39,495 bases of DNA from assembly GCA_902797985.1 (NCBI GenBank), contig CADBUZ010000014.1:1-39495 (forward strand), read 5' to 3'. The translations under genes and the position numbers were made by a program. Below, in pieces: positions 812 through 16,785 of this stretch. A model generated the notes under the pieces. That model did no database searches, was not told the DNA's origin, and saw only the letters and a program-made list of their open reading frames with translations. Position 1 is the first letter of the stretch. Each line of letters starts with the position of its first letter. This stretch comes from an uncultured bacterium (GTDB taxonomy: Bacteria > Cyanobacteriota > Vampirovibrionia > Gastranaerophilales > Gastranaerophilaceae).

Positions 812-1037
812 CTAAATCTGATAACGAAAAATTAAACCAAAATAAAGAACATTTAAAATTAGAAACAGAAGATTTTTCACTTACAGAAAAAAATATTCTG
901 AAGGTGTAATTTCTAAACTTGATTTATGTCAAATGAAAGAAAATCTCTTAACTGTAGAAAAATTGGTTTTGTCAAACACAATTGATTGCATGGTTGATTC
1001 TATAAACTTATATAAAGCCGTCGGTGCTAAATATTAA
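812..1037 (+). pseudogene. 3' fragment of a TolC/NodT-family outer-membrane efflux gene, frameshifted
   Basis: The first part reads KSDNEKLNQNKEHLKLETE...FSLTEK. It then shifts frame in a run of seven A (887-893) and continues as SEGVISKLDLCQMKENLL, ...SNTIDCMVDSINLYKAVGAKY, stop at 1035-1037. This matches the C-terminal helices of TolC-like outer-membrane factors, whose signatures are roughly EGxISxLDLLxAxxxLL and a final SLYKALGGGW. Restoring one A gives a continuous TEKKYSEGVIS. The gene lacks its 5' part, and the homology starts immediately after the right REP hairpin, so it was truncated at that boundary. Its stop overlaps the convergent RTX gene by 4 bp (shared TTAA). A TolC-type partner beside an RTX protein fits an old type I secretion locus. 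The single-base shift could also be an assembly error. Confidence 0.6.
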
Positions 1038-2908
1038 TCATATAAATTATTATTTGTTTGATAACTTTGGATAAATTCATTTAATTGAGAGTTATTGTCA
1101 TTATAAAAAGTTGTGCCGATTTCTGAAAAATCATTATTTATTTTCCAAGATTCAACAGAAGATTTTAGTTTTTCTATATTAAATTCTTGTTCATTTATAG
1201 AATTTATATCTATATTATTTTGAAACAATAATTCAGATATATTATATTCTTTTTTACCTATTTTAATTGTTTGTACACTATGATAAATATCATAATTTTC
1301 TATTGTTACGGTATCATTGTTGCTATAAATTAATGTTAAATCGTTTGTTATCTTGTCATATGAAAAATTCAATTGATTAATCTTTTTAAGATTTGAAAAA
1401 ATTATAATATCATTTCCATCGCTATTTTCTACAATATCATTTCCATCCCCCTTTGAAAAATAAATATAATTTTTACCTGTGCCGGTATTAATTATATCAT
1501 TTCCTTTGTTTCCATATATTTTATCAGAATATTTTGAACCTATTATTTTATCATTTCCCAAACCACCTTTTAATGTTAATCCGGTATCAGAAACGTTTCG
1601 TTCAATTATTTTTTTATTTTTACCTTTTCCTTGCGTTTTATAAAGTTTTACGTTTTGAGCATCTATAAAATCATTTAACCATGTTCCGGTATAATTTTTT
1701 GCGTTTTCTCCTAAACTTATTTTATATAAATAAGTTCCATCTGATAAAACGGCATCACGTAAATTGTATGTTTTATCATTTATATTTAACTCAACAGAAC
1801 TTGTGTCGATAGGATTTCGTTTTGTATATGTATTTGTAATATCTTTTTTTGCAAAATTTTTTATTGTAATATATTCGGTTTCTTGCGTATAAATTCTTAA
1901 ATCTTTATTTTTATTAGCAAACTCAAATTTCAAATCTTTTATATCCGAAACATCTTCTATATTCAGAGTAAAATTCTCACCTTTGGTTAAATTTATAATA
2001 TCATTATTATCACCTATAGTATAAATGATTTCATTTTTGCCAATACCACCTGTAATATTATCGTCACCTTTGCCACCTATGATAATATCATTTCCTTTTC
2101 CTCCATATAATTTATCTATGCCGGATGTACCAATAATTTTATCATTATAATCTGTACCATTGAATTTTCCTGATGTTGACATTTCGGTATATATAAAATT
2201 TTGTTCCGATAATAAATTAACAATACTTTTTGATTTTATTAATTCTTGTTTAATTTGATTAATAGCTTGTTTCTCGGTTGTTTCATAAAATGCATAAAAT
2301 GTTCTTTCAATCGAAGTTGTATCAGCCTTCATATCAAAAATGCCTTTTAAGGAGGATTTCGATATTTTTTTAAAATAATTTTCAACTGTTATTGAATCAT
2401 TTTTATTACCATATTTAATAATTAAATCATAATCTTTTCTTTCAATTTTCATATTATCAAAAGAGGTATCAACGAAATATAAATAATCTTTTCCGCTATT
2501 CATAATAATATTATCAATTCCATCTCCTTGTATAAAAGAAAAAATATTTATTCCTTTTCTACCACAAATTGTATCGTTTCCTGCTCCTGCATTAATATAA
2601 TCAGAACTGTTCCCTCCATAAATTATGTCATTACCTTTTATATTAAAATAATTTTTATTATCTTCTTCTGTACCAAATATTTCATATGCCAAATCACCGT
2701 ACAAAAAATTCATATGATTTGTACTTCCATATATGTGGTCGTTTCCTTTTCCTCCCACAATTTGTGTGGTATATTTTGATTTTTTAACATCAATAACATC
2801 GTCCGTATCATAAGAGGGGAAATCTGTCATATCAATATAACCGTTATAAATCCAGAAATCATCTTCTTTAAAAAAATATTGCCAGTTTTTTGTATTGATG
2901 TTCACCAT
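1034..2908 (-). CDS. RTX / haemolysin-type calcium-binding repeat protein
   Basis: This is a 624-residue protein with three blocks of RTX nonapeptides: about residues 50-130 (GGKGNDHIYG, AGAGNDTICG), 250-305 (YGGKGNDIIIGGKGDDNITGG) and 415-500 (GGLGNDKIIG, GNKGNDIINTG). Each block is followed by a segment of the haemolysin-related type, for example KYGNKNDSITVENYF and YSNNDTVTIENY. Such repeats bind calcium and fold outside the cell, usually after type I secretion through an uncleaved C-terminal signal. There is no N-terminal signal peptide, which agrees with that route. No catalytic domain is recognisable. The start is supported by AAAGGA 5-10 nt upstream. No intact ABC exporter or membrane-fusion gene is in the window; only a TolC-type fragment lies downstream. 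Role (adhesin, bacteriocin-like or S-layer-like) is unknown. Confidence 0.85.
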   Translation of the reverse strand: MVNINTKNWQYFFKEDDFWIYNGYIDMTDFPSYDTDDVIDVKKSKYTTQIVGGKGNDHIYGSTNHMNFLYGDLAYEIFGTEEDNKNYFNIKGNDIIYGGNSSDYINAGAGNDTICGRKGINIFSFIQGDGIDNIIMNSGKDYLYFVDTSFDNMKIERKDYDLIIKYGNKNDSITVENYFKKISKSSLKGIFDMKADTTSIERTFYAFYETTEKQAINQIKQELIKSKSIVNLLSEQNFIYTEMSTSGKFNGTDYNDKIIGTSGIDKLYGGKGNDIIIGGKGDDNITGGIGKNEIIYTIGDNNDIINLTKGENFTLNIEDVSDIKDLKFEFANKNKDLRIYTQETEYITIKNFAKKDITNTYTKRNPIDTSSVELNINDKTYNLRDAVLSDGTYLYKISLGENAKNYTGTWLNDFIDAQNVKLYKTQGKGKNKKIIERNVSDTGLTLKGGLGNDKIIGSKYSDKIYGNKGNDIINTGTGKNYIYFSKGDGNDIVENSDGNDIIIFSNLKKINQLNFSYDKITNDLTLIYSNNDTVTIENYDIYHSVQTIKIGKKEYNISELLFQNNIDINSINEQEFNIEKLKSSVESWKINNDFSEIGTTFYNDNNSQLNEFIQSYQTNNNLYD

Positions 2909-8611: not shown

Positions 8612-9466
8612 ATGACAATATCTGTGATTGGAAAGAAAAAACAAGTTAAGAAATCTTTTGAAGAGTTGTTAACTGATTTAAGAACAAGCAGCTCTGAAAA
8701 AGTCAGATATAATGCAGCTCGTGTATTAGGCGAAATGGGCGATTCAAATGCGGTTGAACCGTTAATTGATGTATTAAGAAATGACAAGAACGGTTCTGTT
8801 CGTTTATATGCAGCTAGAGCTTTAGGTGAATTAGGTGATTCAAAGGCTACAGAATATTTGATTGAATCATTAAGAGAAGACAGAAACGTTGATGTACGTG
8901 TTCGTGCAGCTCGTGCTTTAGGTCGTTTGGGCGGTAAAATTGTTGTTGAACCGCTAGTTGAAGCTCTTAATGACGAAAACCCTCAAGTTTGTATCACTGC
9001 TACTGATGCGTTAATCGAAATCGGTGATGTTGCTACTGATGCTTTGATGGGTTCTTTAGACCACGAAAAAGTTAATGTTCGTTGTGATGCTACCAGAGCA
9101 TTAGGCGAAATTGGTAATAAAAAAGCTGTTGATAAGATTATCAATATGTTATATGACGAATGGGTTAACGTTCGTATTTATGCCGTTACTTCATTAGGTA
9201 AATTAAATGATATAAAAGCAGTTCCTGCTTTAATCGAAGTTATGAAGAACGAAAAAGAAAATGAATTAGTTAGAGCAGGCGCAGCTGCTGCGTTAGGTGT
9301 TCTTAGAGATCAAAGAGCATTGTTACCTTTAAGAGAATTGATTATGGCTGCTGAAGAGTTAGGTGAACTCGAAGATACAGCTCTTAAATCTTTCAAAAAG
9401 ATTATGGCTGCTAATTGGCAATCAATTCCTGGTGCTACAGCTCAAAAGAAACCTGTTAATGCTTAA
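8612..9466 (+). CDS. HEAT-repeat protein (PBS-lyase/CpcE-like)
   Basis: This 284-residue protein is built of about seven to eight HEAT repeats of 30-31 residues. Typical units are VRYNAARVLGEMGDSNAVEPLIDVL, VRLYAARALGELGD, VRVRAARALGRLGG, VRCDATRALGEIGN and VRIYAVTSLGKL. This is the PBS-lyase HEAT-like type, common in cyanobacterial phycobilin lyases of the CpcE family and in many scaffolds. With no phycobiliproteins expected, a protein-binding scaffold is more likely than a lyase. GGAGG lies 8 nt before the ATG. A strong terminator follows at 9503. The rather regular GTT/CGT codon choice suggests high expression. Confidence 0.92.
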   Translation: MTISVIGKKKQVKKSFEELLTDLRTSSSEKVRYNAARVLGEMGDSNAVEPLIDVLRNDKNGSVRLYAARALGELGDSKATEYLIESLREDRNVDVRVRAARALGRLGGKIVVEPLVEALNDENPQVCITATDALIEIGDVATDALMGSLDHEKVNVRCDATRALGEIGNKKAVDKIINMLYDEWVNVRIYAVTSLGKLNDIKAVPALIEVMKNEKENELVRAGAAAALGVLRDQRALLPLRELIMAAEELGELEDTALKSFKKIMAANWQSIPGATAQKKPVNA

Positions 9467-10986: not shown

Positions 10987-12573
10987 ATGTTTTATAACTA
11001 TCACGAAGATTATCAATATGACAGCTGTATTTCTAAAGGGATTTGTTCTATTAATCCGAGAACTTCTTCTCTTAGAGAAGTATTAGTTATGTATTTAAAA
11101 CAGTTAGCTTTTTATACACTTCATTTAAAATATTTAGGTGTAAAAAATAGTGCTACAGAAGATATAATACTTAATTCTTTGTCAGGATTAATGTCAAATT
11201 TGGAAAGTGGAAACAAACAATTTTATCAAACACTTATTAATTTAAAAACAATTATTATAGAATCTATAGAAACGTATAAAAGAATTTGTAAAGATAGAAA
11301 TATTTTACCTAAAGAGGTTAAAACTAATATAAAACTTAACCGTAAATTAAATATCACGGATTTAATTCAATTAGGAGAAAAAGAATTTTCTAAAAAATTG
11401 AAAACTATATCTGATGAGAAAAGAAATCTTTATGAAATAATTTTTCTTATCTTAAAAAGTATATGTATAAATTTAGTTGAGCTAAAAAGTTTTGGGATAA
11501 ATGACAGTTGCGGATATTCAGAAATATTATATTTATTAAATACTATTAATTTTCCGGAGTTATCTTCAAAAATCTTGATTAAAAAAATAAATAAAGCTGT
11601 AGAAATTGATTATATGTTATCTCGAAAGATTTATGAGGCGAGAACCAATTATTTTGGTAAACAAACAGAGGCAGATGTTTCTTATACGACATATCCAAAT
11701 AAAGCAATACTTGTTGCAGGTACAAATATTCAAGAGCTTAAAAAAGTATTAGATGCGACGAAGAATAAAAATATAGATGTTTATACCCATGGTGAAATGA
11801 TAGTCGCATATACTTATCCGAAATTTAGAGAATATAAAAATTTAAAAGGACAATTTGGGCAAGGTATTGAGTACTGTTTATTAGATTTTGCTAATTTTCC
11901 CGGAGCAATTTTAATTGCAAGGCATTCTCTTGAAAACATTGAATATTTGTATAGAGGTCGTCTTTTTACTACTGATAATTTTGTCCCTCATGGGGTTGTA
12001 CAGATAAAAGATGATGATTATACTGCCTTGATTAATTCTGCATTATCTGCTCGTGGATTTAAAACGGGTAAAACCAGAGAATCAGTAAAAATAGGTTGTT
12101 CTCAATCAGATTTAGAAAATAAATTACAGGGTTTAATTGACAATATTGATAAATATAAAAATATAATAATTGTCGGAACTGAAGAACACACTGTTGAACA
12201 AAAAAATTATTTTGAAAATTTAATTAAAAAATTGGATGAAAACACTTTTGTTATTTCACTATCTGAAAAACATAATTTTAAAAATTTTGTTCATATAAAA
12301 TCAGCTCCTGATTTTTATATGATATATAGAATTTGGAATATTTTAAAACAATATATAAATAAAGATAATACAAAAATATCGTTATTTGTTTCAAAATGTG
12401 ATAAGCACACAATTTCACAGGTGTTAAATTTAAAGCAATTAGGGTTTGATAAAATATATATGAGTAAATGCACTCCTGTAATGTTAAATCCAACATTAAC
12501 AGCTACATTAAAAACCATATATGATATTACCCCGACAACAACTGTTTCGGAAGATATAAAACAGTTTATGTAA
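10987..12573 (+). CDS. Hybrid-cluster-protein (HCP) homologue lacking most cluster ligands
   Basis: This 528-residue protein has the architecture of hybrid cluster protein/hydroxylamine reductase: an N-terminal MF-type start, two helical domains, then the C-terminal core with KAILVAGTNIQELKKVL, VYTHGEMIVAYTYPKF and FANFPGAILIARHSLEN. Compared from memory with HCP, the N-terminal CxxC is YNYH (only C14 and C20 remain). The hybrid-cluster His becomes T246. The Cys of TTNC becomes S314, that of GGCD becomes E399, that of ACGK becomes Ser/Glu near 426-427 and that of GQCND becomes A440. The late Glu becomes D472. Only Glu270 in THGEM is kept. It is therefore probably not a standard NO/hydroxylamine reductase. 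The ATG was chosen because family members start MFCYQC; the open frame extends upstream to a TTG at 10945. No clear ribosome-binding site is visible. Confidence 0.85.
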   Translation: MFYNYHEDYQYDSCISKGICSINPRTSSLREVLVMYLKQLAFYTLHLKYLGVKNSATEDIILNSLSGLMSNLESGNKQFYQTLINLKTIIIESIETYKRICKDRNILPKEVKTNIKLNRKLNITDLIQLGEKEFSKKLKTISDEKRNLYEIIFLILKSICINLVELKSFGINDSCGYSEILYLLNTINFPELSSKILIKKINKAVEIDYMLSRKIYEARTNYFGKQTEADVSYTTYPNKAILVAGTNIQELKKVLDATKNKNIDVYTHGEMIVAYTYPKFREYKNLKGQFGQGIEYCLLDFANFPGAILIARHSLENIEYLYRGRLFTTDNFVPHGVVQIKDDDYTALINSALSARGFKTGKTRESVKIGCSQSDLENKLQGLIDNIDKYKNIIIVGTEEHTVEQKNYFENLIKKLDENTFVISLSEKHNFKNFVHIKSAPDFYMIYRIWNILKQYINKDNTKISLFVSKCDKHTISQVLNLKQLGFDKIYMSKCTPVMLNPTLTATLKTIYDITPTTTVSEDIKQFM

Positions 12574-13674: not shown

Positions 13675-14925
13675 TCAAATAATATCTAATGGTGTAAGAT
13701 TTTTATCATTTATTTCTTTTATAGGATAGAGAAATTCTAAATCTTCATCTGATAGTGATTTTAGAGAATTTTCGGCAATAGTTAAAATTTCTTTCGTAAC
13801 ATCTTTTATATATGTATTTTTTACTTTTGTTTCAAGTCCTAATCTGGGAACATTATACCTAAATTCGGAAATATCATTACAAGTGAATTTTTTCATTAAT
13901 TCTTCTGTTTCTAATAATGCATCGGGGTTATAAAAAATTCCTTTATACATAGAAAGTAATGAATACATATATTTTTCATCAACACAATCGTGGTTTCTTA
14001 TTTCTATGAAATTTCTTAATCTTATTTCCGGAAAATAAAGGTTTGAATGTAATTTAAAATCATCTAATGTTGCATCAAAACCTTCCCAACCGTTATTGAT
14101 AAACTGTTTAAAATTGATTTTCCCATTAATATGAATATATTTGTTATCTCTAACAATATAAATCATCGGAACATTTAAAAGGGTTTTAATATAATCTTCA
14201 AAAGTCATATTATCTTTAAATTTAGTGGCAAAACCGCATCTTTCATTATCTGTGTTTAACCACGCAAGTGCTCGAAAACTTTTATAACCTGTATCAACTC
14301 CTCCTCTAATATTAGAGTTCGCATACATTGCAGTTATAAATGGAGAAAGTTTATTTGCAAGATTAAATTTCTTTATTGCATCTTCTTCATCTTTAAAATC
14401 TATCCCGACTTGGATACCAGCTGTTTCTCTCATCATTACATCTGATAATATCCCCCATAAATAATTCGCCATATATTTATATCTTTTTTTAGGGATTATT
14501 TTTATATTTTTATAGGTAGATTTTGGGTAAACTCCATAGTTTAAAAGTTTAACATCATATTTTTCAAATGTTTCTATTAATGAATTATTTATTTCATCAA
14601 TTTTTGATTTTATATTTTTTACGGATTTTTGAGGTTCAATACTTAATTCTACTTGAGAACCTGGTTCAAGAGTAATGGTATCATGTATTTTTTTGAGTCC
14701 GATAATTTCATTTTCGTCTAAAATATAATCCCAGTTATCAATTTTTGCAAATTCTTTTAATATCTCACAAACACCAAATTCACCATAATATGATATAGCG
14801 TGTTGAGTATATTTATTAATTGGTAAACGTTCGTATTCTAAACCAATTAATTCTTTATTTTTACATCCGCATTTAATAGTATTAATTAGTTCATCTAGTG
14901 ATAATTTTTCCTTGCAAAATGTCAT
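13675..14925 (-). CDS. Glutamate-cysteine ligase, plant/proteobacterial (GCS2/EgtA-like) type
   Basis: This is a 416-residue ATP-dependent carboxylate-amine ligase. Signatures are IGLEYERLPI (substrate and metal binding), ITLEPGSQVELSIEP, KRYKYMANYL, METAGIQVGIDF-like MMRETAGIQVGIDF, SNIRGGVDTGYKSFRALAW and IEIRNHDC. It should form gamma-glutamylcysteine from glutamate and cysteine. EgtA and type 3 GshA share these motifs and cannot be told apart by eye. No glutathione synthetase (gshB) or ergothioneine gene is in the window, so the final thiol is unknown. AGGAG precedes the ATG. galE follows 29 bp downstream. Confidence 0.88.
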   Translation of the reverse strand: MTFCKEKLSLDELINTIKCGCKNKELIGLEYERLPINKYTQHAISYYGEFGVCEILKEFAKIDNWDYILDENEIIGLKKIHDTITLEPGSQVELSIEPQKSVKNIKSKIDEINNSLIETFEKYDVKLLNYGVYPKSTYKNIKIIPKKRYKYMANYLWGILSDVMMRETAGIQVGIDFKDEEDAIKKFNLANKLSPFITAMYANSNIRGGVDTGYKSFRALAWLNTDNERCGFATKFKDNMTFEDYIKTLLNVPMIYIVRDNKYIHINGKINFKQFINNGWEGFDATLDDFKLHSNLYFPEIRLRNFIEIRNHDCVDEKYMYSLLSMYKGIFYNPDALLETEELMKKFTCNDISEFRYNVPRLGLETKVKNTYIKDVTKEILTIAENSLKSLSDEDLEFLYPIKEINDKNLTPLDII

Positions 14926-16228: not shown

Positions 16229-16305
16229 TTATTTGTGGGCAATTAATTCCGCAAAAAAAACTTTATGTATTTGTATTACTTGGAAATTAAGTGAGGAAAA
16301 AAATT

Positions 16306-16785
16306 ATGAGTGGAACATCTTTTGGGGATTCTAATCCCTTACTAATTCCTGCCAATCTGGCAGTTGGAGTCAGTCATGCAGCGATAAAAACATTAACAGA
16401 AGGCGATGGCATAGAAAAAGCGGCATTAACATCGTTAGTGCCGGGGTACGTTTTGTACGATATTTTTACAAATGGTTCTGATAGCTTAGTCGGAAGATTG
16501 GGTACAAATTTGTATAATAATACGCCGATTTCCATTATGACGTCTGAGGATGGTAAAATTGATTCGCATCCATTGTTAACTGTATCAAATCCTGTGGTTG
16601 GAGTTGGTCATGCAGCGATAAAAACATTGGTCGATGGTGATGGTATGGAAAAGGCTGCATTAACGTCATTAATACCGGGGTACGCTTTGTATGATATTTG
16701 TAAGAATGGCTCAGATAGCTTAGTCGGACGACTGGGGAATAATATTTTAAATAACACCCCGTTAGGTAGTATATTTTCATCTTAA
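16306..16785 (+). CDS. Unknown protein made of two tandem 78-residue repeats
   Basis: This 159-residue protein is two copies of one unit. Unit 1 (residues 11-88) and unit 2 (89-159) share NPxVGVxHAAIKTL, GDGxEKAALTSLxPGYxLYDI and NGSDSLVGRLGxNxxNNTP. There is no signal peptide, and the moderately hydrophobic stretches are too short for clear membrane spans. I recognise no family. The ATG at 16306 is supported by GAGGA 8 nt upstream; an in-frame GTG at 16291 overlaps that site and is less likely. It is monocistronic, with a strong shared terminator. Conserved Gly, Ser and His-Ala-Ala positions suggest each unit is a small folded module, perhaps self-assembling. Confidence 0.75.
   Translation: MSGTSFGDSNPLLIPANLAVGVSHAAIKTLTEGDGIEKAALTSLVPGYVLYDIFTNGSDSLVGRLGTNLYNNTPISIMTSEDGKIDSHPLLTVSNPVVGVGHAAIKTLVDGDGMEKAALTSLIPGYALYDICKNGSDSLVGRLGNNILNNTPLGSIFSS
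16336..16785. repeat. Tandem 234-bp coding duplication
   Basis: Units start at 16336 and 16570. Blocks such as CATGCAGCGATAAAAACATT and CCGGGGTACG are identical at both positions, so the duplication is visible at the DNA level, not only in protein. Third-position differences are spread along the units, which indicates a moderately old event. Confidence 0.8.

Follow-up and report, generated by a model that had tools for sequence, protein, structure and literature searches.

The metal ligands of hybrid cluster proteins (HCPs) are conserved in all classes, and a class III variant in which one N-terminal Cys is lost (C67Y) contains no [4Fe-4S] cluster and has a disordered N-terminus (PMC10502027, 2023). 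The electron donors of class I HCPs are unknown, and the genes of class I and class III proteins are often isolated (PMC10210160). In this study, we analysed a gene for an HCP-fold protein in a stretch of 39,495 nucleotides from an uncultured member of the Gastranaerophilaceae (hereafter, the window), and compared its product with these systems. The canonical class I and class II HCPs (D. vulgaris, 1e2u; E. coli, 7de4) have the same full-length fold and domain order as the window protein (TM 0.75-0.80), and the THGEM, FPG and C-terminal core motifs are common to both. In contrast to these HCPs, the ligands of the hybrid cluster are lost in the family of the window protein, as is the first half of the motif for the N-terminal cluster, and the family has new cysteines (C101, C471 and C495), R323 and other gene neighbours. 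The class III HCP (M. marburgensis, 7e0l) and its C67Y variant (7wsx) are alike in the prismane core (TM about 0.6), but the class III protein keeps all seven hybrid-cluster ligands and its middle region is approximately 100 residues shorter. The Ni,Fe-CO dehydrogenases have a remote common fold (TM about 0.4-0.5), but their C-, B- and D-cluster ligand set is absent from the window protein. E. coli Hcp/Hcr (protein S-nitrosylase, NO reductase) is homologous, and a theme of thiol and NO chemistry is possibly common to both, which we take as a lead only. E. coli Hcp uses the hybrid cluster, the formation of which is not expected in the window protein, and its partner is Hcr, whereas the relatives of the window gene have a glutaredoxin neighbour.

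The reading frame of the window gene is intact from the ATG at 10987 to the stop codon ending at 12573. A TTG located 42 nt upstream lengthens the mechanical ORF; since the relatives start at the same MFYNY, the ATG is the likely start. The product matched the Pfam Prismane model (PF03063) at 107.7 bits (cut-off 27), indicating membership of the Prismane/HCP-CODH superfamily, and the same model matched 85/85 family members. The NCBIfam hydroxylamine reductase models NF003658 and TIGR01703 gave 197 bits (cut-off 367) and 187 bits (cut-off 361), respectively. These scores, below the equivalog cut-off, indicate homology to hydroxylamine reductase at a level under the curated bar. The only strong solved relatives detected by phmmer and profile search were HCPs. 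An AlphaFold (AF2) model, for which 85 family members were the alignment input, reached a pLDDT of 86.5 and a pTM of 0.88, with pLDDT < 50 at residues 1-21, and all of the best Foldseek matches were HCPs, the top one being E. coli Hcp (7de4, TM 0.80). The open frame, the Pfam match (8e-31) and the Foldseek result agree with the description in an earlier note on this DNA, namely, a full-length HCP homologue without a frameshift, and the sequences show that the family keeps the prismane fold. Promoter and terminator scans gave nothing bearing on this gene.

Table 1. Coordinates of the ligand-less gene, of its residues of interest and of other features in the window. Fractions refer to members of the ligand-less family; residues in brackets are the E. 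coli Hcp counterparts.
Feature	Position	Strand	Remarks
Ligand-less HCP-fold protein gene	10987..12573	+	528 aa, open frame, Pfam Prismane 8.2e-31
N-terminal tail, residues 1-21, CX2C lost	10987..11049	+	C14/C20 kept in YDSCxSxGICS
C101, helical domain (D106)	11287..11289	+	Cys 84/97
T246 for hybrid-cluster His (H249)	11722..11724	+	Ser/Thr in 75/100
E270, ligand unchanged (E273)	11794..11796	+	E 42/100, D 31/100
S314 for ligand Cys (C317)	11926..11928	+	Ser 71/100
R323 in YRGRLFTT	11953..11955	+	Arg 97/100; D or K in canonical HCPs
E399 for persulphide Cys (C405)	12181..12183	+	Cys 1/100, otherwise variable
E427 for ligand Cys (C433)	12265..12267	+	Tyr 51/100, Cys 7/100
A440 for ligand Cys (C458)	12304..12306	+	Cys still in 38/100
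C471-D472, D472 for ligand Glu (E492)	12397..12402	+	C471 92/97, D472 69/100
C495 (T515)	12469..12471	+	Cys 90/97; co-varies with C471
RTX-type repeat protein gene	1034-2908	-	624 aa
HEAT-repeat protein gene	8612-9466	+	
Glutamate-cysteine ligase homologue gene	13675-14925	-	PF04107
Orphan protein gene	16291-16785	+	164 aa

Residue correspondence was taken from the alignment to E. coli Hcp (Table 1). Six of the seven hybrid-cluster ligands are changed in the window protein, with E270 alone unchanged; the Glu at position 427 is adjoined by S426. Among 100 aligned family members, the maximum number of ligands kept was three: 35 members kept none, 33 kept one, 27 kept two and five kept three. The hybrid-cluster His was present in only 2/100 members, and the two former Glu positions were more conservative in character, with E or D at position 270 in 73/100 and D, N or E at position 472 in 91/100. 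In the first alignment, each of the 25 canonical HCPs of full length, namely, E. coli Hcp and 24 proteins from the bacterial class of the window, kept all seven ligands, and so did 13 further canonical HCPs from that class. Because the canonical proteins keep 7/7 ligands and the family members at most 3/7, the loss is beyond chance or a slip of alignment, and the hybrid cluster appears, from these sequences, to have been permanently given up by the family. A full or partial hybrid cluster might still be assembled for NO or hydroxylamine reduction, as the fold match to HCPs and the partly kept acidic residues at 270 and 472 would allow, but the upper limit of three ligands in any member, together with the near-complete loss of the persulphide Cys and the His, makes such an activity highly improbable.

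At the N-terminus, C3 and C6 of E. coli Hcp are absent from the window protein, while C18 and C25 are retained as C14 and C20, each of which is Cys in 93/97 family members. The CX2C upstream of C14 was absent in 100/100 members, with the second Cys pair kept. Since loss of a single Cys abolished the cluster in the C67Y variant (PMC10502027), the window protein probably has no N-terminal [4Fe-4S] cluster, and very probably the family has given up this cluster also; the disordered N-terminus of the variant resembles the low-confidence tail of our model. The replacements listed in the earlier note (T246, S314, E399, S426/E427, A440 and D472, with E270 kept) were all recovered in the E. coli Hcp alignment, as was its count of two lost cysteines out of four in the N-terminal motif. 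As to its question of whether orthologues conserve the same substitutions, the loss of ligands is indeed family-wide, but the replacing residues are not identical across the family. Because the window protein has one of the seven ligands that define an HCP or hydroxylamine reductase, and because the four-Cys N-terminal motif of HCPs is incomplete in every member, it should not be given either name; an automatic annotation of this gene as 'hydroxylamine reductase' would be wrong.

A search of 58 relatives detected homologous frames in almost all genera of the bacterial family. Named records assign the group to Candidatus Gastranaerophilales/Melainabacteria, and many of them come from rumen and gut samples. 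A profile search covered 287 genomes of this bacterial family with completeness of ≥ 90% and identified a match in 277 of them, in 35 of 36 genera. The listed matches were essentially full length and nearly all of the frames were open; the few flagged as having stops inside include frames open to the terminal stop, such as that of 533 aa in genome G021. The dN/dS ratio in close pairs was 0.03-0.13, with one value of 0.27 (Nei-Gojobori method, dS < 0.85), indicating that the gene belongs to a maintained family under purifying selection. The window genome has the ligand-less copy and no canonical HCP, and both types are found in some genomes (e.g. G008, G012, G013, G022, G023 and G025). The loss of most ligands and the fast evolution of the family, with identity of 30-43% between genera, could be taken as signs of an HCP pseudogene decaying in the window lineage. 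Such decay is scarcely credible and is refuted by the family-wide data: the near-universal distribution, the open frames, the low dN/dS values and the new conserved residues of the family all stand against it, and in genome G015 it is the canonical HCP frame (L061:2642-4210) that is interrupted by TAA, the ligand-less copy being open. The proposal of the earlier note that the gene is selected for another job, such as regulation, a scaffold or a different cofactor, is thus upheld; it had named orthologues with intact ligands as the sign of a decaying copy, and the opposite was observed, the orthologues being equally ligand-less.

Two trees were built by quick searches; both are unrooted and have long branches. 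In each, a single branch with support of 99-100% separates the degenerate from the canonical proteins. Since E. coli Hcp groups with the canonical HCPs sampled across the class, these trees are most simply read as a single origin of the degenerate proteins. Partly degenerate HCP homologues were also found in two neighbouring families of the order (L033, L034 and L036 in f7; L055 and L059 in f6). Among them, L033 has the complete set of four N-terminal cysteines and 3/7 hybrid-cluster ligands, and others keep fewer; these copies look like intermediate or parallel states. Ligand-less copies occur in tandem in two genomes, with two copies in G022 (L068) and three in G018 (L069, at G018:C145). Genome G022 has, in addition, two further near-identical partial copies at contig ends (L065 and L066).

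The family has its own conserved residues (Table 1). Canonical HCPs have no Cys in the columns of C101, C471 and C495. Both C471 and C495 were kept in 90 of 97 members and both were lost in five; C495 alone was lost in two, and C471 alone in none. The co-loss gave a Fisher p of 3e-7, an optimistic value as the counts come from related sequences with approximately three independent events as judged by eye on the tree. In the MI-APC analysis, this pair ranked 234 of 136,503 column pairs, with C495 as the top partner of C471. No covariation of C101 with other cysteines was detected in the column-pair analysis, and C101 was therefore not assigned to the C471/C495 site. C14 and C20 vary independently of C471 and C495, and one shared site of these four cysteines is disfavoured by the independent loss of the two pairs. 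Since the C471/C495 pair is lost in 5-7 of 97 members, it is apparently not indispensable to the family. DSSP analysis of the AF2 model gave a strand at 463-468 followed by C471, a helix at 475-485, and a strand at 489-492 followed by C495. Such a beta-alpha-beta unit would bring the two loops together, and topology and covariation suggest that C471 and C495 are most likely neighbouring cysteines beside the emptied pocket. The invariant residues other than metal ligands are D300 (fixed in 100/100 members), F301, F304, G306, Y266 and R323.

The gene neighbours of the ligand-less family also differ from those of canonical HCPs. At 25 loci, a gene for a CPYC-type glutaredoxin-like protein of 75-94 aa is located directly upstream on the same strand, with a gap to the ligand-less gene of 4-19 nt including the stop codon, except for one gap of 63 nt. 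At four of these loci (L081, L085, L146 and L170), the other neighbours differ and the glutaredoxin is retained. A second type, a glutaredoxin-3-like gene, takes the position directly upstream in genomes G025 and G015, which are of two further genera, about 5-25 nt away, and in G027 and G034 a glutaredoxin gene is adjacent as judged by coordinates. Within the set of relatives, a glutaredoxin gene of one of these two types is thus directly upstream in 12 genera, usually within 20 nt, and the genomes with this linkage have only about one or two glutaredoxin matches each. The window locus has no adjoining glutaredoxin gene; the glutaredoxin of this genome is encoded elsewhere, and the unlinked glutaredoxin of the genus resembles the first (CPYC) type and lies beside a Cys-rich protein. 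As read from the sequences, canonical HCPs of the order often adjoin Rrf2-like or CRP-like regulators or a ferredoxin-type gene, which is the usual setting of HCPs in nitrosative stress, whereas Rrf2- or CRP-type regulators were not found beside the ligand-less genes.

Taking these observations together, we tentatively favour a cluster-less, HCP-derived thiol-redox protein with C471 and C495 as a dithiol pair, possibly served by glutaredoxin, of which we infer both the chemistry and the partnership. C471 and C495, placed after consecutive beta strands by the former cluster pocket, would act as a dithiol/disulphide pair, the disulphide could be reduced by glutaredoxin, and the emptied pocket would be lined by E270 and D472 along with R323 and D300, both of which are fixed. 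The role of such a protein is most likely that of a redox or nitrosative-stress sensor or reductase. The co-loss of the new Cys pair and the glutaredoxin gene directly upstream in relatives support this thiol-redox reading, while it is weakened by the unlinked glutaredoxin of the window genome, by the loss of C471 and C495 in some members and by the possibility that these cysteines bind metal.

Metal binding would make the emptied pocket the site of a replacement cofactor, either a different metal or a small Fe-S cluster, held by C471, C495, D472 and E270, and possibly by C14 and C20 of a mobile N-terminus, with glutaredoxin delivering or reducing the cofactor. The family has up to four cysteines that are almost invariant, acidic residues are present where two of the former ligands stood, and the C-X5-C spacing is retained from the old N-terminal cluster; these features are consistent with a replacement cofactor, as is the general ability of glutaredoxins to carry Fe-S clusters. 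A new cofactor nevertheless seems rather unlikely, as the independent loss of C14/C20 and C471/C495 argues against a four-Cys site, positions 246, 314, 399 and 427 vary and mostly hold residues that are not ligands, and the linked glutaredoxins are of the CPYC/CPFC type, not the CGFS type usual in cluster transfer. Somewhat less probable still is a cofactor-free pseudoenzyme or scaffold, in which the fold is kept for regulatory protein-protein or ligand binding and the cysteines are mainly structural. The strong conservation of the fold and of the invariant residues listed above, with most ligand positions drifting freely, would suit a scaffold, but the co-varying Cys pair and the glutaredoxin neighbours in 12 genera would be left unexplained. 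A broader proposal is that the family forms an additional class within the HCP/CODH superfamily, a core gene product of gut Gastranaerophilales in which the ancestral Fe-S-O cluster site has been remodelled to hold a new cofactor or to act as a dithiol active site, with C471, C495, D472, E270 and R323, and is coupled to glutaredoxin; taken as a whole, it is a possibility that we advance with reserve.

In the open-access papers searched, we found no description of a ligand-less family or of a link between glutaredoxin and HCP. A near-universal gene of one bacterial family contrasts with the stated conservation of the ligands in all HCP classes, and represents a prismane fold that outlives its metal. 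The function of HCPs is debated (NO reduction or protein S-nitrosylation), and the family provides a natural experiment on which part of it needs the cluster.

Other neighbours of the ligand-less genes were set aside. In the window, a TPR protein, a galE-like protein and a glutamate-cysteine ligase homologue are encoded on the strand opposite to the ligand-less gene, and their genes are not conserved beside it. The last of these, two genes downstream, is a hint of glutathione or gamma-Glu-Cys synthesis; its best NCBIfam match was a plant-type model, below the cut-off. In another subclade (L105, L114, L120 and others), the ligand-less gene is followed by a CpaE-like gene (response regulator and ParA/MinD ATPase) and by a membrane protein without a Pfam match; the gaps are 8-134 nt, no link of these genes to the ligand-less gene is known, and they are kept as context. 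Elsewhere in the window, the orphan protein consists of two similar halves (VGVxHAAIKTLxxGDGxEKAALTSLxPGYxLYDI) and has no significant match in Pfam or NCBIfam, and the RTX-type protein carries calcium-binding nonapeptide repeats (PF00353). Finally, the HEAT-repeat protein shows a below-cut-off likeness to the phycocyanin lyase subunits CpcE/CpcF and to NblB, the host being a non-photosynthetic relative of cyanobacteria.
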